The translations under genes and the position numbers were made by a program. Positions 2,134 to 20,088 of a stretch of 23,605 bases of DNA are shown here, in pieces. A model generated the notes under the pieces. It saw nothing but the letters and a program-made list of their open reading frames with translations. It ran no database searches and had not been told where the DNA came from. Source of the DNA: a virus; the IMG/VR virus record IMGVR_UViG_3300025435_000096, positions 1 to 23,605 of that record; one strand, written 5' to 3'. Every line of letters begins with the position of its first letter. Position 1 is the stretch's first letter.

Positions 2134-2161
2134 TTGACAAAGTCTAATGCGCATTTATAAT
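2134..2161 (+). promoter_or_regulatory. Consensus sigma70 promoter P1 (leaderless start expected)
   Basis: A perfect -35 TTGACA (2134-2139) and a perfect -10 TATAAT (2156-2161) are separated by 16 bases. The expected transcription start, 7-8 bases after the -10, is 2168-2169, and A2169 is the first base of the next gene's ATG. There is no Shine-Dalgarno sequence in the 8 bases between. The first 14 bases match the promoter at 9001 at 13 positions, including GTCTAA after the -35. Confidence 0.85.
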
Positions 2162-2168
2162 CAAGCGC

Positions 2169-2465
2169 ATGGCACAAACCCCCGAAGCAAAAGTTAAAAA
2201 GCAAATCAAGGCTATCCTTGAGAAGCATGGTGTGTACTACGCTATGCCGATTGGGTCAGGCTTTGGTAACGCAGGTGTCCCTGACTTTTTGTGTTGCGTG
2301 AACGGCAAGTTCTTGGCGATCGAAGCCAAGGCAGGGAATAATCAACCGACTGCATTACAAGATAAACACCTACGTCGGATTGAGGAAGCGGGCGGTGATG
2401 CGTGGGTAGTTAATGAAACTAACTTAATTCATTTAGAAGATTTTGTAGCGGAGAATATGAAATGA
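2169..2465 (+). CDS. VRR-NUC domain nuclease (98 aa)
   Basis: This is a stand-alone VRR-NUC (PD-(D/E)XK superfamily) nuclease, the domain also found in eukaryotic FAN1 and in many phage proteins; it is thought to cut branched DNA. Seen are GVPDFLCC with D39, IEAKAG with E52 and K54, and QPTALQ with Q64, the usual metal-binding and catalytic positions. The length is normal for the phage form. The start at 2169 is the only one possible: an in-frame TAA lies at 2145-2147, and the next Met (residue 26) would remove the first helix. No ribosome site precedes it, consistent with the leaderless transcript expected from the promoter at 2134. It probably acts in recombination or in processing replication intermediates. 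Confidence 0.92.
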   Translation: MAQTPEAKVKKQIKAILEKHGVYYAMPIGSGFGNAGVPDFLCCVNGKFLAIEAKAGNNQPTALQDKHLRRIEEAGGDAWVVNETNLIHLEDFVAENMK

Positions 2466-2689
2466 CAACGCTTGAAATTAAAAATCAGTTACTACCCATT
2501 TTTAACAAAATGTTTGAGGAAGTATACAACGCACACAAACCCACTGAATACCGAATGAAGTTTAGCTACGGCAAGTATTCCATATACCGATGGGATTATG
2601 AGAATGGTAAAAGAACAAGCTCAACCTTAGCAAAAGGGCTGAGTAAAGAGGAAGCAACTGGAATGATGAAACTTTTACAGGAGGACTAA
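2462..2689 (+). CDS. 75-aa hypothetical protein
   Basis: The start overlaps the nuclease stop (ATGA, 2462-2465), so the two are probably co-translated. The product has an N-terminal helix (EIKNQLLPIFNKMFEEVYN), a central section rich in Tyr and Lys (RMKFSYGKYSIYRWDYENGK) that suggests beta strands, and a C-terminal helix (SKEEATGMMKLLQED). I do not recognise the family. Its coupling to the VRR-NUC gene makes a partner or modulator of that nuclease possible, but this is inference only. Confidence 0.7.
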   Translation: MTTLEIKNQLLPIFNKMFEEVYNAHKPTEYRMKFSYGKYSIYRWDYENGKRTSSTLAKGLSKEEATGMMKLLQED

Positions 2690-2690
2690 A

Positions 2691-2987
2691 ATGAGTGAAA
2701 TATCAGCAGGAGTGCAAGCATTGGTAAGCAGGATGGGGTCTCACCCCGAAGAATTCTTTGACCCCAAAGAGAATAGCGAGTGGGCTTTCATTTACAAAGA
2801 AACATTTAGAGACGTGATGACGGAGCCTGAGAAAGCCGCCATTCACACTGCACTTAAGGCAGTACGCAGAAAAGAGTTTGAGTCCAAAGTATTAAAACAG
2901 ATTCTCCGTGCGGACGTACAAGATAGCGTACCACCCAACACTTCCCTAGCATACAAGATGCTGACAACGGAGGGATCATGGAAATAA
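2691..2987 (+). CDS. 98-aa hypothetical protein, tandem paralogue A
   Basis: A strong CAGGAGGAC site precedes the ATG at 2691, one base after the previous stop. The start SEISAGVQALVSRMGSHPEE resembles EIISPMVTMLAERMRTNPED of the next gene, and EPEKAAIHTALKAVRRKEFE resembles DTEKEMLMGAYRDLCRKRFE there, so the two are tandem paralogues. The shape is all-helical. It overlaps the next gene by 10 bases. It sits between a nuclease and the DNA polymerase, so a role in replication is plausible. No known domain is recognised. Confidence 0.75.
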   Translation: MSEISAGVQALVSRMGSHPEEFFDPKENSEWAFIYKETFRDVMTEPEKAAIHTALKAVRRKEFESKVLKQILRADVQDSVPPNTSLAYKMLTTEGSWK

Positions 2988-3475
2988 TCTCCCCAATGGT
3001 GACGATGCTCGCCGAGCGTATGCGCACGAATCCCGAAGACTTTGTTTCTACCAATAAGAAAAATTTGGTTGGTAGTACTCCCCCTAAGTTTTACGAGATC
3101 GCACAGATACTCGCTGATATTGTCGCTGAACCTAATGCAAAATACTATTGGTTTCTTAGCGATACCGAAAAGGAAATGCTGATGGGTGCGTACCGTGATC
3201 TGTGCCGAAAGCGTTTTGAAGACAATTGCATGGAAAGATTACTTGAAGATAAACAAGAATATGAAGGCCCCGCTTTAGGCCCCACTATTATCAGAGCGCA
3301 AGGTAGGTATCAAACAATGCCTTGGATAGACCCACGATCACTTTACGGACAACGTGAAGATTTACGTGAAGACTTAGTACGAGTGGGCGTAGGCGAGAAC
3401 GGTGTAAACACAGTACATACGTCATCTCTTGCGCAACGAATAAACGGTGCATTGAATAAGATGATAAACAAATGA
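2978..3475 (+). CDS. 165-aa hypothetical protein, tandem paralogue B
   Basis: It begins inside the previous gene (10-base overlap) after GGAGGG. Residues 1-100 are homologous to the 98-residue protein upstream (matching RM-x2-P-E-(D/E)-F and xEK-to-RKxFE segments). Residues about 100-165 are an extra segment (GPTIIRAQGRYQTMPWIDPR, then a helical SLAQRINGALNKMINK end). The extra C-terminal part suggests a gained binding function after duplication. The stop overlaps the polymerase start (ATGA, 3472-3475), so it should be made with the polymerase. Function unknown; a polymerase accessory role is a guess based on position. Confidence 0.75.
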   Translation: MEIISPMVTMLAERMRTNPEDFVSTNKKNLVGSTPPKFYEIAQILADIVAEPNAKYYWFLSDTEKEMLMGAYRDLCRKRFEDNCMERLLEDKQEYEGPALGPTIIRAQGRYQTMPWIDPRSLYGQREDLREDLVRVGVGENGVNTVHTSSLAQRINGALNKMINK

Positions 3476-5286
3476 GCATAATTACAATTGACTTTGAAAC
3501 TTTTTACTCTAGAGAGTTCAGTCTTACCAAGATGACAACCGAGGAGTACGTAAGAAGCGAGCAGTTCGAGGTGATCGGCGTGGCGGTGCAAGTGGATGAT
3601 GGTGAGCCCAAATGGTTCACTGGAAACATGAGCATGACGAAACTCTTTCTCGATAGCTTTGAGATGCACAAACACATGGTGCTAGCCCACAATGCTCAGT
3701 TCGACGGGGCCATATTGAGTTGGCTATTTGACATTAAGCCTAAGAAGTGGTTGGATACGCTGAGCATGGCACGAGCTATTCACGGTACTGAAGTAGGCGG
3801 TAGCTTGAAGAAGCTGGCTGAACACTACGATGTCGGGGTCAAAGGCGAGGAAGTGGTCAATGCACTGGGGTTGCGCCGAGAGGATTTTCCCGCCGACCAA
3901 CTGGCACGCTACGGTGAATATTGCCGAAACGACGTGGCGCTAACTTATGCTATCTTTAACCTGATGATGCAGGACTTCCCAACGTTTGAGCTAAGCCTGA
4001 TTGACTTGACCTTGCGTATGTTCACCGAGCCAGTATTGGTGTTGTCCACAGACTATTTGCATACCCATTTACTTACAGTTCGCCTACACAAAGAAAACCT
4101 GTTGCAGAATTTTGATAAAGACATCTTGATGAGCAACCCCAAGTTTGCCGAGCTACTTATTGAACACGGCATTGAGCCCCCAATGAAGACTAGCCCCGCC
4201 ACAGGTAAGCAGACGTTTGCGTTCTCTAAAACGGATGAAGCGTTCAAAGAGTTGCTTGAGCATGACGACCCGCAGGTGCAAGCTCTAGTGGCAGCGAGGT
4301 TAGGCACTAAGTCTACGCTAGAAGAAACAAGGACTGCTCGGTTTCTGGACATGGCAAACCGTGGGCCAATGCCAGTTCCCTTAAGATACTATGCCGCCCA
4401 CACAGGTCGATGGGGCGGTGATGACAAAATCAATCTACAAAATCTGCCCCGCCAATCTCCCATCAAACGTGCGATCTTAGCCCCTGAAGGTTATTTGTTG
4501 GTCGACTCAGATTCATCTCAGATTGAAGCAAGAACTCTAGCATGGCTAGCCGAGCAAAACGATTTAGTGGAGGCATTTGAAAATGGACAAGACGTATACA
4601 AGATCATGGCATCTGCTATCTATGCTAAAGGAGAAGCAGAAATTACAAAAGACGAAAGGTTCGTTGGTAAGACAACGATTCTCGGTGCGGGGTACGGCAT
4701 GGGGGCGACTAAGTTTAAAGCGCAACTTAAAACGTTTGGAGTGGAGATCGAGGAGGAGGAATCAAAAAGAATTATTACGACGTATCGAGAAACGTACCCG
4801 TCTATTGTTGAATTATGGAGACAGGGGGCAATAGCCCTTAAAGCCATCATGAACAATGAAACTACCAAGCTAGGCCGAGAGGGAGTCCTTATGGTCGACG
4901 GCAAGAAAGGCATCAAGTTGCCTAATGGTTTATACCTACGTTACCCTAACTTGAGAGTGCAGACCACCGACGGCAAAGATGAACTTGTTTACGATAACAA
5001 AAAGGGCCGGATGTCTGTGCCAACTAGAATATACGGTGGTAAGGTGATTGAGAATGTGTGTCAAGCTCTAGCCCGCATCGTGATCGGTGAGCAGATGCTA
5101 ATGATTGCTAAGAAATACAAAGTCGTCATGACTGTGCATGATGCGATTGCTTGTATCGTCCCGGAGCAGGAAGTTGAGACTGCTAAAGAATATGTTGAAT
5201 TGTGTATGCGTATACGCCCACAGTGGGCCCCCGACTTACCATTAAATTGCGAATCGGGTTTTGGTAAAAGTTATGGAGATTGCTGA
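3472..5286 (+). CDS. Family A DNA polymerase with 3'-5' exonuclease (604 aa)
   Basis: This is the phage replicative DNA polymerase. Residues 1-190 are the DnaQ-like proofreading exonuclease: ITIDFETF (D7, E9), AHNAQFDG (D78) and YCRNDVALTY (D154). The polymerase domain shows motif A DSDSSQIEAR (D347), the O-helix motif B RFVGKTTILGAGYG (R396, K400, Y408) and motif C TVHDAIACI (H556, D557). The 5'-3' exonuclease domain of bacterial Pol I is absent, as is usual in phages. All key catalytic residues are present, so it should be active in synthesis and proofreading. It is coupled by ATGA to the upstream gene and by TGATG to the next. The priming partner is probably the AEP-DUF927 protein at 10601. 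Confidence 0.97.
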   Translation: MSIITIDFETFYSREFSLTKMTTEEYVRSEQFEVIGVAVQVDDGEPKWFTGNMSMTKLFLDSFEMHKHMVLAHNAQFDGAILSWLFDIKPKKWLDTLSMARAIHGTEVGGSLKKLAEHYDVGVKGEEVVNALGLRREDFPADQLARYGEYCRNDVALTYAIFNLMMQDFPTFELSLIDLTLRMFTEPVLVLSTDYLHTHLLTVRLHKENLLQNFDKDILMSNPKFAELLIEHGIEPPMKTSPATGKQTFAFSKTDEAFKELLEHDDPQVQALVAARLGTKSTLEETRTARFLDMANRGPMPVPLRYYAAHTGRWGGDDKINLQNLPRQSPIKRAILAPEGYLLVDSDSSQIEARTLAWLAEQNDLVEAFENGQDVYKIMASAIYAKGEAEITKDERFVGKTTILGAGYGMGATKFKAQLKTFGVEIEEEESKRIITTYRETYPSIVELWRQGAIALKAIMNNETTKLGREGVLMVDGKKGIKLPNGLYLRYPNLRVQTTDGKDELVYDNKKGRMSVPTRIYGGKVIENVCQALARIVIGEQMLMIAKKYKVVMTVHDAIACIVPEQEVETAKEYVELCMRIRPQWAPDLPLNCESGFGKSYGDC

Positions 5287-7621: not shown

Positions 7622-9027
7622 GCTTAGCTACATACAACTGGCCCCGACCACACGGATACACTCCGTTCGCCCACCAAGTTCAGACTGCGGATTTCTTGAC
7701 CAAACACCGAAAGGCATTCTGCTTTAACGAGCAGGGTACAGGTAAGACTGCGTCAGTCATTTGGGCAACCGACTACCTCATGACACGGGGTATCTTAAAG
7801 CGGGTTTTGATTGTATGTCCACTCTCGGTGATGAAGGCCGCATGGCAGGAAGACTTGTTCAAGTTTGCCATACACCGCAGGGTCAGTGTTGCTTACGGCA
7901 GTGCACGTAAACGCAAAGAAATTGTTCTTGGTGGCGCTGAGTACGTCATCATTAATTTTGATGGGATTGAGATTGTTAAGAATGAAATCATTCAAGGTGA
8001 GTTTGACCTGATCGTGGTTGATGAAGCGTCAGCCTATAAGAACGCACAGACAAACAGATGGAAAGCGATGAGGGATTTGGGCAAGCACATCCATGGACTG
8101 TGGATGTTGACTGGAACGCCAGCCGCTCAAAGCCCTGCGGATGCTTACGGATTGGCAAAGTTAGTCAGCCCAACCAACGTACCAAAGTTCTTTGGTGAGT
8201 TTAAAACACAAGTGATGTACCGAGTCAGTGAGTTTCGTTGGTTACCCAAAGCCGACGCTGATCAAACAGTACACAAAGCTCTTCAGCCCGCTATCAGATT
8301 TGAGAAAGCACAGTGCCTAGACCTGCCACCACTTACCTATACTGATCGAGACGCACCACTCACGCCGCAGCAGTTGGCGTACTACAAGAAACTTAAGAGT
8401 CAGATGTTGATCGAAGCAGCGGGTGAAGAAGTCAGTGCTGTCAATGCCGCATCTAAATTAACCAAGCTACTTCAGATTTCATGTGGTTCAGTGTACACAG
8501 ACACTGGGCAGGTGGTGGACTTTGATGCGTCGAGCCGACTGAAAGTGGTCAAGGAAGTGATTGATGAGTCGAGCCACAAGGTGTTGATCTTTGTTCCATT
8601 CACCCACACGATTGAATTGTTAACGAAATACTTAACCAAGAACGGAATTACAAACGATGTTATTAACGGCGATGTGAGTGCAAACAGACGTGCAGAGATT
8701 ATCAGAGAGTTCCAGAGCAATCCAGAGCCAAAGGTTCTCGTCATTCAGCCACAAGCCGCATCTCATGGTTTAACCTTAACCGCCGCCAACACAATCATAT
8801 GGTATGCTCCGTGCACCAGTGTTGAAACCTATCTCCAAGCAAACGCAAGGATTGATAGACCCGGGCAACGTAATCCAATGACGATCGTACACATAAGAGG
8901 TAGCGCAGTTGAGAAGCGCTTGTACGAAATGCTCAGGAACAATATCAATAACCATGCGAAAATAATTGAGCTTTATAAACAAGAATTAGGGGAAGAAGAC
9001 TTGACAATGTCTAACCCCGACGTATAA
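7618..9027 (+). CDS. SNF2-family DNA helicase/translocase (469 aa)
   Basis: A superfamily 2 ATPase of the SNF2 type, likely a dsDNA translocase that remodels forks or recombination intermediates. Motifs in order: Q-like FAHQVQTADFL (about 20), Walker A EQGTGKT (K43), motif II VVDEASAY (D135, E136), motif III LTGTPAAQS, and the C-lobe with KVLIFVPF, LVIQPQAASHGLTLTAAN and motif VI QANARIDRPGQ (Q407, R411, R414). The length of about 470 is normal for compact phage SNF2 proteins and no extra nuclease domain is attached. The stop (TAA, 9025-9027) lies inside the -10 box of the promoter at 9001-9028, so transcription of the next operon starts right at its end. Confidence 0.95.
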   Translation: MSLATYNWPRPHGYTPFAHQVQTADFLTKHRKAFCFNEQGTGKTASVIWATDYLMTRGILKRVLIVCPLSVMKAAWQEDLFKFAIHRRVSVAYGSARKRKEIVLGGAEYVIINFDGIEIVKNEIIQGEFDLIVVDEASAYKNAQTNRWKAMRDLGKHIHGLWMLTGTPAAQSPADAYGLAKLVSPTNVPKFFGEFKTQVMYRVSEFRWLPKADADQTVHKALQPAIRFEKAQCLDLPPLTYTDRDAPLTPQQLAYYKKLKSQMLIEAAGEEVSAVNAASKLTKLLQISCGSVYTDTGQVVDFDASSRLKVVKEVIDESSHKVLIFVPFTHTIELLTKYLTKNGITNDVINGDVSANRRAEIIREFQSNPEPKVLVIQPQAASHGLTLTAANTIIWYAPCTSVETYLQANARIDRPGQRNPMTIVHIRGSAVEKRLYEMLRNNINNHAKIIELYKQELGEEDLTMSNPDV

Positions 9028-9028
9028 T
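9001..9028 (+). promoter_or_regulatory. Consensus sigma70 promoter P2
   Basis: A perfect -35 TTGACA (9001-9006), 16 bases of spacer and a perfect -10 TATAAT (9023-9028). It lies over the last codons of the SNF2 gene. The predicted start is near 9035-9036, giving a leader of about 24 bases with AAAGGA before the ATG at 9060. The first 14 bases match the promoter at 2134 at 13 positions, including GTCTAA after the -35, which is more than the hexamers alone need. Confidence 0.85.
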
Positions 9029-9059: not shown

Positions 9060-9479
9060 ATGGACGATCAAGTTCAGGAAGAAAAGCCCTCCGTTGATTC
9101 TCTAGCCCAAACGTATATCAAGATGCGTGACAAGCGAGAGGTACTCAAACGAGACTGGGAAGCTAAAGATACCGAGATTAAAGCTCAGATGGAAGTCATC
9201 GAGCAAGCACTGCTTGATCTTTGCAAAGAGATCAACGCAAACAGTATCTCCACCAATCATGGCACGGTTATTCGATCAGTTAAATCACGGTACTGGACGA
9301 ACGACTGGGATTCATTGTATCGAGTTATCAAAGAACACGATGCATTCGGCCTGCTTGAGAAACGAATTCAGCAAACGCATATGAAAGAGTTTCTACAAGA
9401 GAATCCAGATCTTCTCCCCGCTGGCCTCAACGTGGAGAATCAATACACCGTACTTGTTAGACGTAAAAAGGAAGAGTGA
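9060..9479 (+). CDS. Gp157-like phage protein (139 aa), unknown function
   Basis: A clear AAAGGAAC site precedes the ATG, which follows the promoter at 9001. Residues 10-65 form a charged helix with coiled-coil character (LAQTYIKMRDKREVLKRDWE and on). The rest resembles phage proteins that have STNHGTVIRSVKSRYWTNDW, a DxxxxYxxIKEHDAFxxLEK segment and a C-terminal NPDLLPAGLNVENQYTVLVR. This plan is recalled from phage replication clusters, where such proteins sit next to single-strand-binding-like proteins, and it has some likeness to the Gp157 family. The function has not been shown. It is one base from the next gene, so the two are coupled. Confidence 0.7.
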   Translation: MDDQVQEEKPSVDSLAQTYIKMRDKREVLKRDWEAKDTEIKAQMEVIEQALLDLCKEINANSISTNHGTVIRSVKSRYWTNDWDSLYRVIKEHDAFGLLEKRIQQTHMKEFLQENPDLLPAGLNVENQYTVLVRRKKEE

Positions 9480-10600: not shown

Positions 10601-13432
10601 ATGTTTGATCTACTAGATGCTGTTCTACCAGCAGAGGGTAGGTACTGCGTGTTTGGTTTGGGTAAGTTCCCAGACCAGCGCTTCTGCGATACACGTGCTG
10701 AAGTTGATGTAATAGCGCAAGAGTTTGTCAAAAACAAAGTCAATGCTTTCTATGGCTGTGCCAAGTATGGAGAACTGAACAACAGGACTCATGCGAACGC
10801 ACAGTTCTTTAGAGCACTATGGGTTGACATTGATTGTGGTATTGCAAAAGCTGCTGAAGGCAAGGGCTACGCTACGCAAGCGGAAGGTTTAACTAGGTTC
10901 AAAGAGTTTGTCAGAGCCGCCCATCTACCTACGCCAATCGTAGTGGATTCAGGTTATGGCATCCATGCATACTGGTTGTTGGAAGAAACAATACGCCGAC
11001 CCGAGTGGGAAGCATTGTCCGATAGACTTGAAGAGCTGTGCAAAGAGCACGGACTCATTGTTGACCCTGCTGTTTTTGAAGCATCCCGAGTACTTAGAAT
11101 ACCCGGAACTTTTAACTTTAAAGGTGAAGAGCCTGTTGAAGTAAGAGTACTCTACGAAAATTCTTTGCGTGTTCCATACGCAGAAATGAAAGAACTACTC
11201 GGCGCCCCCGAGCCTAAAGAAGAACGGCCTGATTTTATCCCGAGGACGATGAGCCCTTTGATGACTCAGTTGGTATCCAACAGAGTTAGACGGTTCAAGA
11301 CCATCATGATGAAGTCGGTTGAAGGCACAGGTTGTGCACAGCTTTTGCACTGCTTTCAAAACCAAGACACGATTGAGTATAACCTTTGGCGCAGCGCTTT
11401 ATCCATTGCTGCTTTTTGCGTAGACAGAGATACTGCGATCCACAAGATTTCAAAAGACCATCCTGACTATGACTTTAGAGCAACCGAGCGCAAAGCCGAT
11501 GACGTTGTAAAGACAGGTGCACCGCACCACTGCTCGACATTTGAGAAGAACAATAAAGGATTTTGTGATGGCTGTATGCACAAGGGCAAGATCAAATCTC
11601 CCATAGTGCTCGGCGATGAAGTTGCCGAAGCCGACGATGAAGATAACACGGTTGAGATTGAGAGCGAAGAAGGCACGGTAGAGACGCATCAGATACCTGA
11701 GTATCCGTTTCCATTTTTCCGTGGTAAGAATGGTGGTGTGTACCGCCGTTCAGATGAAGAAGAGGGTGATGTAACCCAAGTGTACGAACATGATTTGTAC
11801 ATCGTTAAACGTTTGGTAGACAACAATGCTGGAGAGGTAGCCCTTGTTAAACTGCACCTGCCAAGAGATGGGGTGAAAGAGTTTGTAATTCCACTGACTG
11901 CAATCACAGTCAAAGAAGAATTGAGGAAAGCGTTAGCTCACTACGGCGTAGTGTTGTTTGCAAAACAATTGGATCAAGTGTACATCTACATGATGACATT
12001 CATTAAAAACATGCAGGTAGAAAGAAAGGCAGACATTATGAGAACACAATTTGGTTGGGTCGAAGGTGACAGTAAATTCATCCTCGGCGAGCGTGAGATA
12101 ACTAAAGATGGGGTGTTTTATAGCCCACCATCCCATGCAACAAAAGGTATCGTTGAGCATGTGCATGCCAAGGGCACATTGGAGAAATGGAAAGAAGCAT
12201 TCAACATGTATGCGTTACCCGGACTTGAGCCCCATGCGTTTGCCGCACTGACATCGTTTGGTTCGCCCTTGCTGAAGTTCACCGGTATGAGTGGTGCGAT
12301 CATTAACTTGATTCACGAGAAGTCTGGATCAGGTAAATCAACAGCTTTGTTTATGTGTAACAGCGTATACGGACATCCTGTTAAGCTGGCATCGCAGTGG
12401 AAGGATACGCCCCAATCCAAGATGCACCGACTAGGTGTGATGAACAACATCTCCAACACGATTGACGAGATTACAAACACATCCCCACTGGAGTTCTCTG
12501 ATCTGGCTTACAGCATATCTCAGGGTAGGGGCAAGGACAAGATGCGAGCCGACCGAAACGAGATGCGGGTCAATAATACAAGTTGGAACAACATGACCCT
12601 GTGCTCATCCAACGCTAGCTTCTATCAAAAGTTGGGTTCCCTAAAGACTTCCCCTGATGGCGAGTCCATGCGCTTGATTGAGTACAAGATTGAGCCAAGT
12701 AATGTGATTGATGTTGCTTTGGGCAAAGAGATGTTTGACCATCAACTCAGGGAAAATTATGGTCACGCAGGGGAAATTTATTGCCAATGGCTTGTGAATA
12801 ACCTTGAGGAAGCCAAAGATTTGGTTCGCCAAATCCAAGCTCGAATCGACAAGGAAGTTAACTTTACTGCACGTGAGCGTTTTTGGTCAGCCGTTTGCGC
12901 TTGTAATATTGCCGGTGGATTGATTGCCAAGAGCCTTAGACTGCACGACTACGACATGAAGTTGGTTTACAAGTGGTTGGTCAAGATGCTCAATGACATG
13001 AGAGAAGACGTGAAACCTCCAGCGGATCTGCCTATTTCAATACTGGGAGACTACATCAACTCACATTTGCCTAACGCTTTGGTTGTGAATGGCGAAGTAG
13101 ACTCAAGGAGTGGACTCAACAGCGCACCGCTACAAGAGCCAAGAAATGAGTTGCTCATCCGTTATGAGCCCGACACCAAGAATCTTTATGTAACAGCCAA
13201 GTCTTTCAAAGACTACTGCGTTAAGTACCAAATTAACCATAAAGAACTACTAGTCAAACTAAAAAATCTAGGTTTGTACAAAGAAACTATTAATAAGCGC
13301 ATGGCCAAGGGCATGAAGGTTGTGTCTCCTGCCGTACGAGTATTGATGTTTGATGCTTCATCAACAGAGTTTTTACAGATCGAATATGAAAATAGAGACG
13401 GTGAGTTATCAGATCAACTGGAAACGGTTTAG
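10601..13432 (+). CDS. AEP-type primase fused to DUF927-like helicase/ATPase (943 aa)
   Basis: A replication protein that should make primers and unwind DNA. Residues 1-215 are an archaeo-eukaryotic-type primase: WVDIDCG (D76, D78), SGYGIHAYW (H122) and IVDPAVFEASRVLRIPGTFN (D155). A cysteine cluster near 310-325 (HHCSTFEK, then CDGCMHKGKIKSP) resembles a zinc finger found in such proteins. Residues about 365-750 are the ATPase: Walker A HEKSGSGKST (K579), Walker B NTIDEITN (D622, E623) and a sensor-like CSSNASFYQKL. The ATPase matches the DUF927 type. The C-terminal 190 residues include another helical segment. The size of 943 is large but usual for this fusion. The start at 10601 follows GGAAG. 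Confidence 0.93.
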   Translation: MFDLLDAVLPAEGRYCVFGLGKFPDQRFCDTRAEVDVIAQEFVKNKVNAFYGCAKYGELNNRTHANAQFFRALWVDIDCGIAKAAEGKGYATQAEGLTRFKEFVRAAHLPTPIVVDSGYGIHAYWLLEETIRRPEWEALSDRLEELCKEHGLIVDPAVFEASRVLRIPGTFNFKGEEPVEVRVLYENSLRVPYAEMKELLGAPEPKEERPDFIPRTMSPLMTQLVSNRVRRFKTIMMKSVEGTGCAQLLHCFQNQDTIEYNLWRSALSIAAFCVDRDTAIHKISKDHPDYDFRATERKADDVVKTGAPHHCSTFEKNNKGFCDGCMHKGKIKSPIVLGDEVAEADDEDNTVEIESEEGTVETHQIPEYPFPFFRGKNGGVYRRSDEEEGDVTQVYEHDLYIVKRLVDNNAGEVALVKLHLPRDGVKEFVIPLTAITVKEELRKALAHYGVVLFAKQLDQVYIYMMTFIKNMQVERKADIMRTQFGWVEGDSKFILGEREITKDGVFYSPPSHATKGIVEHVHAKGTLEKWKEAFNMYALPGLEPHAFAALTSFGSPLLKFTGMSGAIINLIHEKSGSGKSTALFMCNSVYGHPVKLASQWKDTPQSKMHRLGVMNNISNTIDEITNTSPLEFSDLAYSISQGRGKDKMRADRNEMRVNNTSWNNMTLCSSNASFYQKLGSLKTSPDGESMRLIEYKIEPSNVIDVALGKEMFDHQLRENYGHAGEIYCQWLVNNLEEAKDLVRQIQARIDKEVNFTARERFWSAVCACNIAGGLIAKSLRLHDYDMKLVYKWLVKMLNDMREDVKPPADLPISILGDYINSHLPNALVVNGEVDSRSGLNSAPLQEPRNELLIRYEPDTKNLYVTAKSFKDYCVKYQINHKELLVKLKNLGLYKETINKRMAKGMKVVSPAVRVLMFDASSTEFLQIEYENRDGELSDQLETV

Positions 13433-13654: not shown

Positions 13655-13679
13655 CCCCGCCTATGTGCGGGGATTTTTT
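13655..13679 (+). terminator. Rho-independent terminator for + strand transcripts
   Basis: CCCCGC (13655-13660), a six-base loop, GCGGGG (13667-13672), then A and TTTTTT (13674-13679). It closes the + strand replication module just before the convergent - strand gene. In the reverse direction the stem is followed by TTGAAAG, so it is unlikely to be an efficient terminator for the - strand. The T-run overlaps the reverse-strand stop codon at 13678-13680. Confidence 0.9.
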
Positions 13680-16600
13680 ATGGGCTTTGCCTTTCCCGTT
13701 CGTAAAGAGCTTCCCTAGATGGGCGTATTGCTTGGTCTATTAACGGTACATTATGTTCTGTTAATACTATGCCTTTGTCAGCGCCAGCCCTTTGCTCTGC
13801 ACGTTTTTCAATAGAGTTAAGTATTTCTTCTGGCGTTATGGCGAACGATGGGTACTTGGCGTCAAACTCTTTTATCTTATCCAAATATGCTTCAAACCGT
13901 TCATTATTTGAGTTTCTAAACTCTCTATCAAGATTATTGAGCAATTGAGTTTTTTGGTTATTTATTCGTTGCTCAAGTTTAGATACCTCAAAATTAACAT
14001 ACTGCGCATTTGATAATATATCGGAACGGAAGCCAATGGCCTGCCCAATCAATTCACCTTTTTTGAAGGAGTCAGCTTCAAGTAGTGGGGCACCTTTGTA
14101 ATCTTTAGCACCCTCAGTTGCATACTTATATGCAGTAACGTAATTGCGGAAACCAGCGGGTACACCTTTTTCTACACCTTTTTGGTAATCCCCATTCATA
14201 AACGCTTCGTATGACTCTGCTAGTGACAAGAGCATATTTGCTGCTGGACCAGATTTTTCCAAAGCCATCGCCATTGCACTATCTCTAACTGTCTTGGTCT
14301 CTTTGGTATCCCTTGAGAACATGTTATTGATACCAGCACGGTCGGCTACGTTTAAGCCAGTCAGCTTATTAATAAATCCACGCTCTAGCACATCATGGGA
14401 TGTAGGGAACATCTCGGGTAGAAGTACCGTCCTAAACCATAACTCGGGATTCATTGACCGCAAGTCTTCTGGCATATCGGGGTCTTTGAATATATCTTTC
14501 CATGCTTCACCTAATAACCCCATCACTGCGCTAAACCCGGGCAGCCCCACTGCACCTGCCAATATAAACGTAGTCATAAGTGTACCGAAGAACTTTTTAG
14601 CCGCTTCAGCTTTGGTGCGCCCGTTCATGGGCTTGATCATCTCTTTGAAGTTCTTAACCAAGAATGTCGTCACGTGCAACGGATACATGGTGAACTGTAA
14701 TGCAAGTTTGCCGATCGGCCCCTGCATAACCAAAGGACGATTGTATGTGCCGTAGTTGCCAAGGGCTTCATTGGTGTCGGTTACCGCTTGATCTATGGAT
14801 GTTTTAAAGTCTTTGCCCGCTTGTTGGTTCAAACGGAACGAAGCCAAGTACAGCATCTCACGAGACAAACGTTCAGACGAGTGCATCAAACCGCCGAGCA
14901 CCAATGCATCTACGGTGTTTTTAGCAAGCTCCATTTTGGGGCCATACAACTTTTCTGTTGGTTTGCTCTTGTAGTCAAAGATTGCGCTGGCGTACGTAGA
15001 CTTAGAAACATCCCGCGCCATCATTTCTGTAACCGCTTTGCGCTCCAAGGGAGTTAAATCTTTAGAGTGCTCAAGACTGGGCGCAACCCAGTTAACTGAG
15101 CCGTCGGCGTTGGTCTTTTTGTAACCGTACAAACTCCAGAACTTCATCATTCTTGTGAGTTCTCTAGCAGCATTAACTGCACCGTATCTGGACAACACAG
15201 GCACACCGGTTTGGAACACGCTCAATGGTTGAAGCAACGCAGAAGATGCACCCGATAAATACCAAACAAACGATGCTTTGTTCAATGAACTGGCTATTGC
15301 TCCAGCCGCAGTGGGTGGAGGTGGGTTCAACTGATTGGCCACTCGGTCACGCATCTCGCTGACATAAGGTTCTAACTCAGGATGACCCTCAATACTGGTC
15401 TTGGCATCACGCAAAGAGTTATGCATCTGCGACGCATACTTGATACGGGCTAATTGAATAGCCATCTTTGAAGTTGTACTGGATACGTTCTGCAAAAAGT
15501 CTGTACTGAAACCGGTGATATTCTTACGGTTAATAAACTGTTTGCGGAAACTTTGCTCCGGCATGGTGTTCAAATAGATTTGATAGATTGAATCCATCAA
15601 TGCTTCTTTGGCATCAGGGTCGGTTAAATCAGAAGACTCGATACTGGAGAAGATGCTCTTGAGCAAATCACTGGAGGCATACGACTCAGTGCGCAGACCC
15701 TTGATGTCATTGCCCATCCTGAATTCTTTATCGTGCACCAACTCATCATAATTATCTTTACGACGCTGTTCAAAAGCGGCATCAGATTCACCGGGTTTTT
15801 GCTTAATCTTTTCATCTGCCATAGCCTGTGCAGCGGCATCACGCTCCTGCATAGACTGATACATGTAGAACTGACGAGTCTTACCCGTACCGACAGCCAA
15901 CCAGTAATCTCCACGGCGCACCAATGGGAAGTATGGACTGATCTTTTTGCCTTTTTCGTACAGTTCTCTGAGTTTAGCCATGATGTTGGCTTGCTCAGCA
16001 ATGCTCAATCCTGACTTAGAAACTTGATCGTTCAGCAGTTGTGTGTAGTAGTCGGCCAAATCTTCAAAGTGGTTTTTGACTAACTTAAATACTTCTTGTC
16101 CCTTGGGCCCAAGTTCAGCGTATGCTTTATCTAACCTAGCACTACGTTCTTTAGCCCCAGGATTTGATGGATCAACTTCTGCTATCGTAGATGCAAGCGC
16201 AATATCTTCTAACTTACGTTGTAAACTTGGGTCTTCCAAGTATGCATTGTGGATAATCTTGGATATCTCACCGCCAGAAGCCAACAGGTTCTGCATCATC
16301 CCAGACATCTTCTGCATTAGCAAATAGGTGTTGCTCAACTCAGGCACTCGGTCTTTAGCCCAGTCGGTTAAAAACTCAGTTGTCGATGCTTTGAGAAGCA
16401 ACCTGCGCTTTTCGTAATCAATTTTGGCCCACAATCTTCTAAGTGCAGGGATAGCCGCTTTGGGATTACGTGCAATTTGTACAGCCTGTACGCCCTTGGC
16501 CATTTCTTCAGCGGTTCTAGATTGGTCGACTTTAGCGAATGCCTCGTCAACTGCTCTTTCAACTTGCTTCTGTGTACGTTGGATTTCAGCAGGGGTTTCT

Positions 16601-19600
16601 TCTTCGCCCTCTTCTTCCTGCGTTGTAGCCATTGACATGGTTTTGGCAGCTTCATTCTTTTCGCCACGCTCAACCAAACGCTGCATGGGAGTCTTTTGTG
16701 CTTCTAAGATACCGCCAGTAATATGCACCAAGTCTGACAGGCCAGTGTAATAGCCATCGCCCAAACCAAATACATTTAGGATAGAACGAACAAACTTACT
16801 GAATATAGAGTCTTCAGTGTGTACACCTTTGACCAGATTCAAAAACCCTTGCACATCTTGATCAGACATGCCATAGGCTAAGAACTCATCGGGGTCGGTG
16901 AAGATGGTTAAGTCACCATTGGGTTCTTTGACCGACTCAATACGCTCAATCACATCCTTGGACAAATACCCAGCAGCTTTTTCTTCTAGGTATTGCTTCT
17001 TAGCCCGAGCCATCAAGTCTTGTATATTGCGAGCAAACTTGGCTAGAGGAGAATTGAGATCGTAGCCACCTTTTAGTGATTTCAATCCGATGCGTAACTT
17101 TTGTAGCGTAGCAGCATGCAGTGCTTCGTGAAGCACGTCAATGTTATTGATACCTTGGTGGGGGCCATCTGCCCTAACAAAAATATGTTTTTCACCAGTG
17201 GCCAAGTCATAAACGTACGTAGCACGTGCAGTATTCCACATATCAATGTGGTCTTGCAAAGCTTCGGGCAACGGTTCACCTTCTACAACAGAAGTAAATT
17301 TAACCCCACCTACAAAGCCAATTAGCTTTTTAGCCAAAAGTCTTTGGAATGCATTACCTGTCTTGGCAACAATCTGCAACGCTTGAGTAGCATTCTTGGC
17401 GTAGTTAAACCGAATGTTTGGCGCAGCCCTGCCTGCTCTTGTACCTACCGTAGTAGTGTGACCAACTTCTGTTTTCTTGGCACCCTTGGTCTCATTTGCG
17501 ATTCTTGCTTCCGCTTTTGTGATGTCCTCGGCATTGGCATGTTTAGCTAAAGTTTCCCCGATTCGTTTGGCAACTGCACGCCCTTGCGTAGCCTTTTTGT
17601 GCTTGAGCAAGTTGTATATCGCAGTTTCACGCTCGGCCTTAGATGTTGGGTTCTCAAGTTGAGGAGTTAACTTTTTGTGCGCATCATCCGCAGCTTTGCT
17701 GACTCGGTTGTACTCGTTCTTTTCCTCTTGTGTCTTTGGAACGGTAGTCGGTCTTGGTCCACCTTTAGGCCCACGCTTTTGCTTGGGTTCGGTAGGGACT
17801 GCTTCAGTTTTAGTTATTTGTTCGTTCTTAGGCACAACCCCCAATTTTTTACCGGCCTCAAATATCTTAGTTTTTTCTTCGGGGTTAATAGATGGATCAT
17901 CAGCAATAGATTGTCTAAAATCTGCATTCCCTAAATCAGCGGGTATAAAAGGCCAATCTTGGTTCCATCCAGCTTCTTTTTGAGCGTCTAAAGCTATTTG
18001 ACGTACTGGACTTACAGTAGGTGTTTCTTTTACTGGCTGTTTGGCTGCGGGTGTTTCTTGTCCTTGCGCTTCTGTTTGCTGGGCTTGAGGGGTTTCAGTG
18101 CCACTTGGAGGTACTCCTTGATCTTGAGGCTGAGCTTCGGGTTGAACTTGTTGTTGAGCTTGTTGGGCGAGCAGAGCATTACGCTCAGCGGTAATTGCAT
18201 CCCATTGAGCACGATTCTTTGTGCCTTTACTGGGACGACGGCCTTGGGCTGTTGTGAATTGATTACGCTTTTCTTCAAGCGCTTTGACTTGCTCCGCAAT
18301 TGACAATGCGGGTGCTGGCGTAGGCTCAGCTACTGGAGCGGGCTGCGCTGTTTCTCCAACATTAGTTGGTCCAGCATTCGGCTCAGCAGAAACCATTCCA
18401 TCTCGTTGAGGGGTTCCAAGTCCTGCGGTGGGCTGAGTTGTAATGGGCTGGACAGGTGCTCCAGTGCTAACTCCACTTGTTTCAGTGACAGGCTTTCCAA
18501 CATTTTGTTCCTCCTCTTCAGCAAGCGCATCAGCTTCCCTTTGCTCTTTAATTTGTTTTAATGCCAGTTCCTTGGCTTTCTCAGGCGCATGCCCAGCCGC
18601 AATAAAATCTTGCGTGAGCTGATCCTCTTCGGTTTCAACAGGCGTAGATGGTACTTTACTTGCTTGAGCTTCTTGCGCTTCAAGTGCTTGTTGATCTTCT
18701 AAGTCTACACGACGTTCAGCTTCACGCTGGGCATCTTCAGGTTCCCAACCTTTTAATTTACCAGCAATTTCATCAATGCGAGCTTGACGTTCTGGCGCAG
18801 GTGCAGGTGTAGTTATTGCCGGTTTTTGTTCTTCCGCAGCTAGACCCGGAGCCAAAGGCGCCGTTTGACCGGCAGGGGGTGGGGGAGGTGGAGGAACGTT
18901 TGTTTGCCCAGCAGGGGGTGCAGGGGTTTGTTGCATTGAAGCAGCAAGACGAGCTCGTGCTCCGCCAACACCACCGGGCAGTATTGACATACCGTATGCG
19001 CCAGCAGTTGTATTGATATAGTCTTCAATAGCTTTTTTATCACCTAGCGGCAGCCCTGCACCGTAACGTTCGGCCGCAGTTTGAAGCAGTTCGGGTGGTG
19101 TTTCTTTTGACCCAGTTACAAGAATGCCTTTTGCAACATCAATTAAAAAGTTTTTGGTTGAAGGCGATGCCTTCATAATAGATTCAAGACCAATCTTATT
19201 GGCAACGTAGTCGGCAGTGGCATGTACTGCGGAAGCAATACCGACTTTACTCATGTCGATATCATCAATAGTCTTAGCATTTTCTAATGCGCGGCCGCCA
19301 ACCTCTCCCAAACCATGAGCTATTGCTTGCCCCGCCATGCCTAAATTTGAACCGTATTCTTTAGCACCAACTTTAGCAAGCGCTGTTTTTTCTTCTTTAG
19401 TTAAAGTTTTGGCAGCTTGTTCAGCAGTAAACTTTTCTACTGCTTTAGCCGCAGCTTCTTTACCTTCCTTAGCTGCTGTTTCTTCAAATATAGTCTTAGC
19501 TGCTTCTTTGATGCCTTTTCTAACCAAAGTACCTTCAAGTAAACCCATTGTTGCCCCAGCAACAGTGCCTTCTGGCCCCACTGCGGATCCTAGTAAAGAA

Positions 19601-20088
19601 CCAGCTGCCGTTGTTGCTACCGTTTCAGCTATGTTGGCAACACCCGCACCCATTTGATAGGGGATGTATTTGGTAACAACCGTACCAATACCTTTTTTAT
19701 ATGCATCGGTAAAATTATTAGTGCTTCTAGCAGTTTTCTTTTGCTCCGCCTCAGCTTCTTTATAATTTTGTAGCCCATGCTCAACAAGATAATTAGAAAC
19801 GGGGCCTTCGCCAAAAGCTTTTTTCATACCTTGGCCTATCATAGCTTCAGCACCGCCTAAAATACTTTTGGTTTGCGGTATATAGTCACTAAGCCCACGA
19901 CTAAACGCGGACTCATCCCCAAGTGAAGTGCTGTCTAAAAACTGTTTACGTGCGGTTTCTATGTCGTCCTTGGGGACTTTAGGCGCAACAACTTGATCAA
20001 AATATTGATCTCGTGCAGCAGTTTTCTCTGCATCAGGCAGAGCTTGGTATGCATCACTATCGACTACTTCTGCCCATTTCTTAGCCAT
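13678..20088 (-). CDS. Polyvalent-type virion protein with HEALH metallopeptidase (2136 aa)
   Basis: A giant phage protein, probably injected or internal to the virion. Residues 1-330 are Ala/Gly-rich and helical with possible membrane-inserting stretches (ETVATTAAGSLLGSAVG). Residues about 390-800 are a Pro/Gln/Ala/Glu-rich, coiled-coil-like linker including PPPPPPPAG. Residues about 925-1090 hold a zincin: VLHEALHAATLQKL (H987, E988, H991) and a candidate third ligand in DPDEFLAYGM (E1068). The C-terminal part (1600-2000) has ASFVWYLSGASSALLQPLSV and FGTLMTTFILAGAVGLPGFS, like large polyvalent-protein-associated domains. The start has AAGG upstream. No transglycosylase or RNA polymerase motif was found. 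The activity is inferred from the HExxH site. Confidence 0.85.
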   Translation of the reverse strand: MAKKWAEVVDSDAYQALPDAEKTAARDQYFDQVVAPKVPKDDIETARKQFLDSTSLGDESAFSRGLSDYIPQTKSILGGAEAMIGQGMKKAFGEGPVSNYLVEHGLQNYKEAEAEQKKTARSTNNFTDAYKKGIGTVVTKYIPYQMGAGVANIAETVATTAAGSLLGSAVGPEGTVAGATMGLLEGTLVRKGIKEAAKTIFEETAAKEGKEAAAKAVEKFTAEQAAKTLTKEEKTALAKVGAKEYGSNLGMAGQAIAHGLGEVGGRALENAKTIDDIDMSKVGIASAVHATADYVANKIGLESIMKASPSTKNFLIDVAKGILVTGSKETPPELLQTAAERYGAGLPLGDKKAIEDYINTTAGAYGMSILPGGVGGARARLAASMQQTPAPPAGQTNVPPPPPPPAGQTAPLAPGLAAEEQKPAITTPAPAPERQARIDEIAGKLKGWEPEDAQREAERRVDLEDQQALEAQEAQASKVPSTPVETEEDQLTQDFIAAGHAPEKAKELALKQIKEQREADALAEEEEQNVGKPVTETSGVSTGAPVQPITTQPTAGLGTPQRDGMVSAEPNAGPTNVGETAQPAPVAEPTPAPALSIAEQVKALEEKRNQFTTAQGRRPSKGTKNRAQWDAITAERNALLAQQAQQQVQPEAQPQDQGVPPSGTETPQAQQTEAQGQETPAAKQPVKETPTVSPVRQIALDAQKEAGWNQDWPFIPADLGNADFRQSIADDPSINPEEKTKIFEAGKKLGVVPKNEQITKTEAVPTEPKQKRGPKGGPRPTTVPKTQEEKNEYNRVSKAADDAHKKLTPQLENPTSKAERETAIYNLLKHKKATQGRAVAKRIGETLAKHANAEDITKAEARIANETKGAKKTEVGHTTTVGTRAGRAAPNIRFNYAKNATQALQIVAKTGNAFQRLLAKKLIGFVGGVKFTSVVEGEPLPEALQDHIDMWNTARATYVYDLATGEKHIFVRADGPHQGINNIDVLHEALHAATLQKLRIGLKSLKGGYDLNSPLAKFARNIQDLMARAKKQYLEEKAAGYLSKDVIERIESVKEPNGDLTIFTDPDEFLAYGMSDQDVQGFLNLVKGVHTEDSIFSKFVRSILNVFGLGDGYYTGLSDLVHITGGILEAQKTPMQRLVERGEKNEAAKTMSMATTQEEEGEEETPAEIQRTQKQVERAVDEAFAKVDQSRTAEEMAKGVQAVQIARNPKAAIPALRRLWAKIDYEKRRLLLKASTTEFLTDWAKDRVPELSNTYLLMQKMSGMMQNLLASGGEISKIIHNAYLEDPSLQRKLEDIALASTIAEVDPSNPGAKERSARLDKAYAELGPKGQEVFKLVKNHFEDLADYYTQLLNDQVSKSGLSIAEQANIMAKLRELYEKGKKISPYFPLVRRGDYWLAVGTGKTRQFYMYQSMQERDAAAQAMADEKIKQKPGESDAAFEQRRKDNYDELVHDKEFRMGNDIKGLRTESYASSDLLKSIFSSIESSDLTDPDAKEALMDSIYQIYLNTMPEQSFRKQFINRKNITGFSTDFLQNVSSTTSKMAIQLARIKYASQMHNSLRDAKTSIEGHPELEPYVSEMRDRVANQLNPPPPTAAGAIASSLNKASFVWYLSGASSALLQPLSVFQTGVPVLSRYGAVNAARELTRMMKFWSLYGYKKTNADGSVNWVAPSLEHSKDLTPLERKAVTEMMARDVSKSTYASAIFDYKSKPTEKLYGPKMELAKNTVDALVLGGLMHSSERLSREMLYLASFRLNQQAGKDFKTSIDQAVTDTNEALGNYGTYNRPLVMQGPIGKLALQFTMYPLHVTTFLVKNFKEMIKPMNGRTKAEAAKKFFGTLMTTFILAGAVGLPGFSAVMGLLGEAWKDIFKDPDMPEDLRSMNPELWFRTVLLPEMFPTSHDVLERGFINKLTGLNVADRAGINNMFSRDTKETKTVRDSAMAMALEKSGPAANMLLSLAESYEAFMNGDYQKGVEKGVPAGFRNYVTAYKYATEGAKDYKGAPLLEADSFKKGELIGQAIGFRSDILSNAQYVNFEVSKLEQRINNQKTQLLNNLDREFRNSNNERFEAYLDKIKEFDAKYPSFAITPEEILNSIEKRAEQRAGADKGIVLTEHNVPLIDQAIRPSREALYERERQSP

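Follow-up and report, generated by a model that had tools for sequence, protein, structure and literature searches.

The window analysed here is a stretch of 23,605 nucleotides (nt) from the DNA of a lake phage (IMG/VR record IMGVR_UViG_3300025435_000096, positions 1 to 23,605), in which positions 2134-2465 hold a promoter site and the open reading frame (ORF) of a small nuclease. At the junction of the two, a sigma-70-type promoter lies immediately before the start codon, and an earlier note on this DNA had predicted a leaderless messenger RNA (mRNA) for the nuclease. The features of the junction are as follows.

2134-2139, + strand: -35 hexamer TTGACA; TTGACA..GT..A is kept in relatives
2134-2146, + strand: extended -35 motif TTGACAAAGTCTA (class motif TTGACANNGTNNA), common to the promoter at 9001
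2156-2161, + strand: -10 hexamer TATAAT, separated from the -35 by a 16-nt spacer
2162-2168, + strand: discriminator CAAGCGC, 7 nt, without a Shine-Dalgarno sequence (SD)
2168-2169, + strand: predicted transcription start C(-1)/A(+1), with +1 on the A of the ATG; placed by the -10 spacing and the pyrimidine at -1 in relatives
2169-2465, + strand: VRR-NUC/Hjc-like PD-(D/E)XK nuclease, 98 amino acids (aa), predicted leaderless cistron; profile matches, start codon kept in relatives

All 12 bases of the sigma-70-type hexamers TTGACA and TATAAT are present, and the spacer of 16 nt falls within the range of 16-18 nt, in agreement with the earlier note, which had placed the end of the -10 at 2161 and the ATG at 2169. 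The start codon of the nuclease is the ATG at 2169-2171, and AUG is also used by the leaderless-class members listed. As the note had stated, the reading frame upstream of 2169 runs into a stop codon, TAA at 2145-2147, with no ATG, GTG, or TTG between. Its description of 2169 as the only possible ATG holds for this frame, but a second ATG lies at 2147, upstream of the predicted start and out of frame with the nuclease. The absence of an SD before 2169 is likewise borne out, the best match to the anti-SD being TAA. The first 30 nt of the predicted nuclease mRNA are predicted to be free of structure.

The window holds two copies of the perfect form TTGACA-N16..18-TATAAT, which appears in none of 100 dinucleotide shuffles and is not expected by chance. 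When all promoter-like sites in the window are pooled, their frequency is no higher than in shuffles. The second perfect copy (9001-9028, + strand) belongs to the same class and shares the extended motif TTGACANNGTCTAA with the promoter at 2134. It provides an internal contrast, being followed by a 31-nt leader with AAAGGA and then by the ATG at 9060. The same promoter class and an SD leader precede the homologue of the gene at 9060 in the relatives L014, L036, L037, and L048.

The nuclease matches the Pfam Hjc model (PF01870) at 22.7 bits (cut-off 21.1, E 9.4e-5) and PHROG 93 'endonuclease' at 1.7e-16, and the Pfam VRR_NUC model gives no match to it at 1e-3. Pfam thus names the protein Hjc-like, in place of the VRR-NUC label of the earlier note.

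Two spacing classes among relatives

Eighty relatives came from an initial IMG/VR scan and 207 unique start regions from later ones. The pattern scans required TTGACANNGT, and the class counts are counts among the matches listed. Across the 207 unique starts, the distance from the -35 to the ATG is two-peaked, being 33-36 nt in 66 (33 nt in 5, 34 nt in 34, 35 nt in 26, and 36 nt in 1) and 47-59 nt in 63. A single sequence, at 40 nt, lies between the peaks; the remaining starts comprise a few at 26, 28, and 60 nt and 71 without such a promoter nearby.

An SD-like match of at least 4 nt is found in 3 of the 66 short-class starts versus 61 of the 63 long-class starts. Short-class promoters have a spacer of 16 or 17 nt and a -10 that ends 5-7 nt from the ATG. 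Of 54 short-class sequences, 49 (91%) carry C or T directly before the ATG, where the long class mostly has G. Bacterial RNA polymerase prefers a pyrimidine before A as the initiator, so the short-class bases at -1 match the prediction for a start on the A of the ATG. In the SD-bearing relatives, the N-terminus MAxTPE begins at the ATG equivalent to 2169; the assignment of the start codon is thus independent of the leaderless claim.

The comparison of positions 2130-2175 among related phages, which the earlier note had proposed as a check, shows that the promoter, its spacing, and the absence of an SD are conserved. In close relatives, the block from promoter to ATG is conserved and the DNA further upstream is wholly replaced. 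Several leaderless-class relatives (L053, L073) carry a strong terminator directly before the promoter. On a tree of the short nuclease, the leaderless and leadered labels need at least nine changes by parsimony, and the well-supported branches alone force at least three changes for the leaderless label. Because the tree is poorly resolved, our claim is limited to more than one change of state. In L120 and L223, the -35 motif lies 26 nt before the ATG and abuts the SD, and the -10 is gone (TTGACAAAGTACAATATTGGAGTATCATG); this motif is possibly a relic of a promoter deletion. L005-L011 and L037 share the same 75-nt upstream stretch and first codons, and their nucleases diverge downstream (93-96% versus 70-80% identity to the window protein), a pattern suggestive of recombination a little way into the gene.

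The same promoter class precedes 59 other start codons in the same phage DNA set. Nearly all of these lie 17-33 nt downstream of the -10, in SD-led leaders; the exceptions are one at 1 nt, which is an in-frame ATG within the leader of a leadered nuclease, and three farther away. The notion that leaderless starts are unique to the nuclease is true only within its own phage group, where this promoter is placed for such a start at no other gene; many more phage genes so arranged emerged from a wider scan. In that gene-blind scan (TTGACANNGTNNA-N9/10-TATAAT-N5..7-ATG, at least 120 stretches), an ORF of at least 60 codons is opened by 54 of the 105 distinct new sites listed, versus 10% of control ATGs taken from the opposite strand of these stretches. 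This excess suggests that uncultivated phages quite often have leaderless starts behind promoters of this type, the control being a modest one that proves no single gene. The earlier note had called leaderless phage messages known but rare; known they are (in phage PY54, for example), but their rarity probably needs revising. At sites of this kind (L578-L693), a TTGACANNGT...TATAAT promoter ends 5-7 nt before QueE-like and many unknown genes of uncultivated phages, and long ORFs open at about half of the sites.

A pseudoknot upstream of the promoter

A second conserved feature occupies part of the interval from the DUF3310 gene to the promoter.

2065-2098, + strand: H-type RNA pseudoknot; P1 2065-2069/2077-2081, P2 2071-2076/2093-2098, loop AATCTGC 2082-2088

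In order, the sequence consists of the P1 5' strand (CCATG), A, the P2 5' strand (GGGGGG), the P1 3' strand (CATGG), the loop (AATCTGC), ATAA, and the P2 3' strand (CCCCCC); the loop AAUCURC is invariant across sites. At 132 sites defined by P2 and the AATCTRC loop only, P1 is complementary at five of five positions in 110 (83%), versus 15% with the P1 strands swapped. Conversely, with P1 fixed and P2 free, six perfect P2 pairs are found in 37 of 42. Six scrambled loop anchors used as a control return zero sites. Loop 1 varies in length, so that a MAFFT alignment loses the register of P1, and equal-length subsets were used instead. In two such alignments, the interleaved structure lies far above column shuffles and slid versions; the rows were chosen for intact, complementary P1, so their P1 percentages reflect selection, and the unselected tests are the 110 of 132 and the 37 of 42. 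The two interleaved helices thus both show strong covariation, as expected of an H-type pseudoknot.

Where no promoter intervenes, the pseudoknot most often ends 21-23 nt upstream of the start codon, and 71 of 83 such cases have an SD. The gene that follows such a promoterless pseudoknot is the nuclease in 51 cases and another gene, DNA polymerase included, in 32. The pseudoknot is found in 32 of 65 leaderless phages, where its end lies 43-80 nt from the ATG and directly 5' of the promoter, and in 3 of 63 leadered ones. One nuclease gene occurs in three arrangements, namely pseudoknot-SD-ATG, terminator-promoter-leader-SD-ATG, and (often pseudoknot)-promoter-ATG, the window showing the third.

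A cmscan search against Rfam 15 gives nothing at the gathering threshold over the window and nothing with E<=1 for 1940-2200, and the best E for a clean relative is 9.8. One pseudoknot variant compared with cultured phages by DNA similarity has no convincing match, and a literature search of incomplete coverage found no description of the element. The pseudoknot resembles, by general knowledge, H-type translational operators and riboswitches such as those of T4 gene 32 autoregulation (PMC535899) and of preQ1 class I (PMC10639078) in having two short stems (about 34-38 nt) that interleave upstream of a start codon, but differs from them in its sequence, its invariant AAUCURC loop, and its lack of an Rfam match. 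Also unlike them, in this window it lies outside the predicted leaderless mRNA.

We put at even odds the proposal that 2065-2098 represents an undescribed class of phage cis-regulatory RNA, controlling ribosome entry at the first gene of early or replication operons, and that leaderless promoters arose repeatedly in the interval from the pseudoknot to the nuclease AUG, bypassing the pseudoknot without need of an SD. If so, the pseudoknot and leaderless arrangements would be alternative settings of the dose of the same nuclease. In any case, it is an RNA element backed by covariation, without an Rfam family, adjoining a tractable reporter gene. In the gap after the DUF3310 gene, a stem with a long loop (AGCGGG...CCCGCTTTT) and two palindromes of the ACGTACGT type also lie within 1961-2051, and the region 1955-2135 folds better than shuffles (z -2.85).

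The predicted leaderless start and its alternatives

The promoter sequence, the distance from it to a start codon that is itself conserved, the lack of an SD, and the retention of the arrangement in many relatives as one of two discrete states are seen directly. From these we infer the transcription start, the translation of the leaderless end, and a purpose. The sigma-70-type promoter probably (at about 0.83) sets the transcription start on the A of the nuclease AUG, or one base before it, making the message leaderless. The two-peaked spacing, the SD-less short class with a pyrimidine before the A, and the SD leaders of other genes support this reading well, and with it the prediction of the earlier note.

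RNA polymerase would start on the A of the AUG, so that the nuclease mRNA would begin 5'-AUGGCACAAAC, and 70S ribosomes would enter on the 5'-terminal AUG. Later cistrons of the same transcript would be translated via their SDs or by overlap coupling. The pseudoknot would stay on the upstream transcript, freeing the nuclease from its control. The purpose would most likely be a nuclease transcript independent of the pseudoknot-bearing mRNA, with a translation start weaker than, or regulated differently from, those of the replication genes behind it; a hypothetical benefit is that the nuclease would be expressed separately from the SD-led replication genes and probably at a lower level than they are.

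Several points weigh against this reading. The sequence alone cannot separate a leader of 0 nt from one of 1-2 nt, the 5' end being predicted. The requirement for TTGACANNGT under-samples other distances and weaker promoters. Leaderless translation would depend on the host's capacity for it. In addition, no strong terminator lies between the pseudoknot and the promoter, so read-through transcripts carrying the nuclease may exist.

An inverted repeat flanks the -10 and bears on one of the alternatives.

2147-2152, + strand: left arm ATGCGC of the inverted repeat
2165-2170, + strand: right arm GCGCAT, running into the start codon; weak family-wide support

A repressor dyad ATGCGC/GCGCAT over the -10 and the start codon could dictate the short spacing, leaderlessness being a by-product. 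The arms are perfect in the window clade and occur in two different self-complementary versions, since those of L005/L014 are changed yet complementary (ATGTACC/GGTACAT). After thinning of lineages, free-register stem lengths exceed swapped pairings by a modest margin (p about 0.003), and leadered relatives show no excess. However, with fixed registers and all thinned lineages pooled there is no clear excess, and the repeat is absent from many leaderless lineages. The initial impression of a family-wide covarying repeat was therefore not upheld, and the weak pooled signal leads us to retain the repeat only as a lineage-level feature, possibly an operator in some lineages. As an account of the spacing, the operator is unlikely.

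Less likely still is that the promoter is real but serves the downstream genes, the nuclease being translated mainly from a longer, upstream-started RNA through the pseudoknot, with the leaderless end little used. Such RNA would meet no T-tract terminator in 2098-2134, and the pseudoknot sits in an SD-led 5' untranslated region of the same nuclease in other phages. However, such read-through RNA would lack an SD upstream of 2169, the fixed distance of 33-36 nt would be left unexplained, and the terminators just before the promoter in L053 and L073 speak against it. That the promoter-like match is a coincidence is very improbable. A consensus match alone is no proof of function, and pooled promoter-like sites are no commoner than in shuffles, but the perfect form is missing from all 100 shuffles, and the conservation of sequence and spacing in dozens of phages strongly disfavours chance.

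Known systems and neighbouring genes

The leaderless mRNAs of phage PY54 cI and cro have been mapped by rapid amplification of cDNA ends (PMC4488713), and those leaderless phage messages that the consulted papers describe encode regulators of temperate phages. Lambda cI and PY54 cI/cro (PMC4488713) resemble the window in having a promoter immediately before the AUG, no SD, and an mRNA from the AUG, which is predicted for the window. However, these genes are lysis-lysogeny repressors, whereas the window gene is a DNA nuclease heading a replication operon, and unlike theirs, its arrangement recurs across many phages beside a leadered alternative. The -10 elements adjacent to ORFs in Deinococcus-Thermus (PMC12340547) and the leaderless transcriptomes of mycobacteria (PMC4633059) likewise place the -10 a few nt before the start codon, which yields leaderless mRNA. 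There it is a genome-wide habit of the host; here it concerns one gene with a full -35, and other genes on the same promoter class are SD-led. Leaderless phage mRNA as a kind is thus already known; the novelty lies in the class of gene, in how widely the arrangement occurs, in the existence of discrete alternative states, and in the pseudoknot next to it. In uncultivated phages, a leaderless start would be one of two discrete options for the nuclease heading the replication operon, and the natural leadered and leaderless pairs, with the same gene and the same promoter, offer a ready test of the purpose of leaderless initiation.

Among 50,697 phage records, none of the cultured phages gives a DNA match, and the closest cultured-phage nucleases reach at most 48% identity (Pseudomonas phage Rollin, 48%). 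Neither the pseudoknot nor the promoter motif is found in the examined stretches of Rollin, KPP25, and Rhizobium phage RHph_TM3_14A. The sole genome-contig match is a contig of a metagenome-assembled genome labelled Omnitrophota, which we do not trust as evidence of the host.

The genes around the nuclease are as follows.

1456-1959, + strand: DUF3310 gene, upstream of the nuclease, with a 209-nt gap between them
2462-5286, + strand: remainder of the proximal operon, with a family A DNA polymerase after three small ORFs (SD GGAG, AGGAGG, and GGAGG)

The nuclease is thus the first gene of an operon that includes the DNA polymerase, as the earlier note had it. Its further claim that translation entry would be unlike that of all the neighbours fits the three small ORFs with their good SDs but is slightly overstated, as polA (3472), SNF2 (7618), and the gene at 10601 are all without a good SD. 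PolA (3472-5286) has a poor SD and overlaps the preceding ORF; SNF2 also overlaps the ORF before it, so translational coupling can serve both. Farther downstream, 13678-20088 holds an opposite-strand ORF of 2136 aa, followed by three more long ORFs on that strand.
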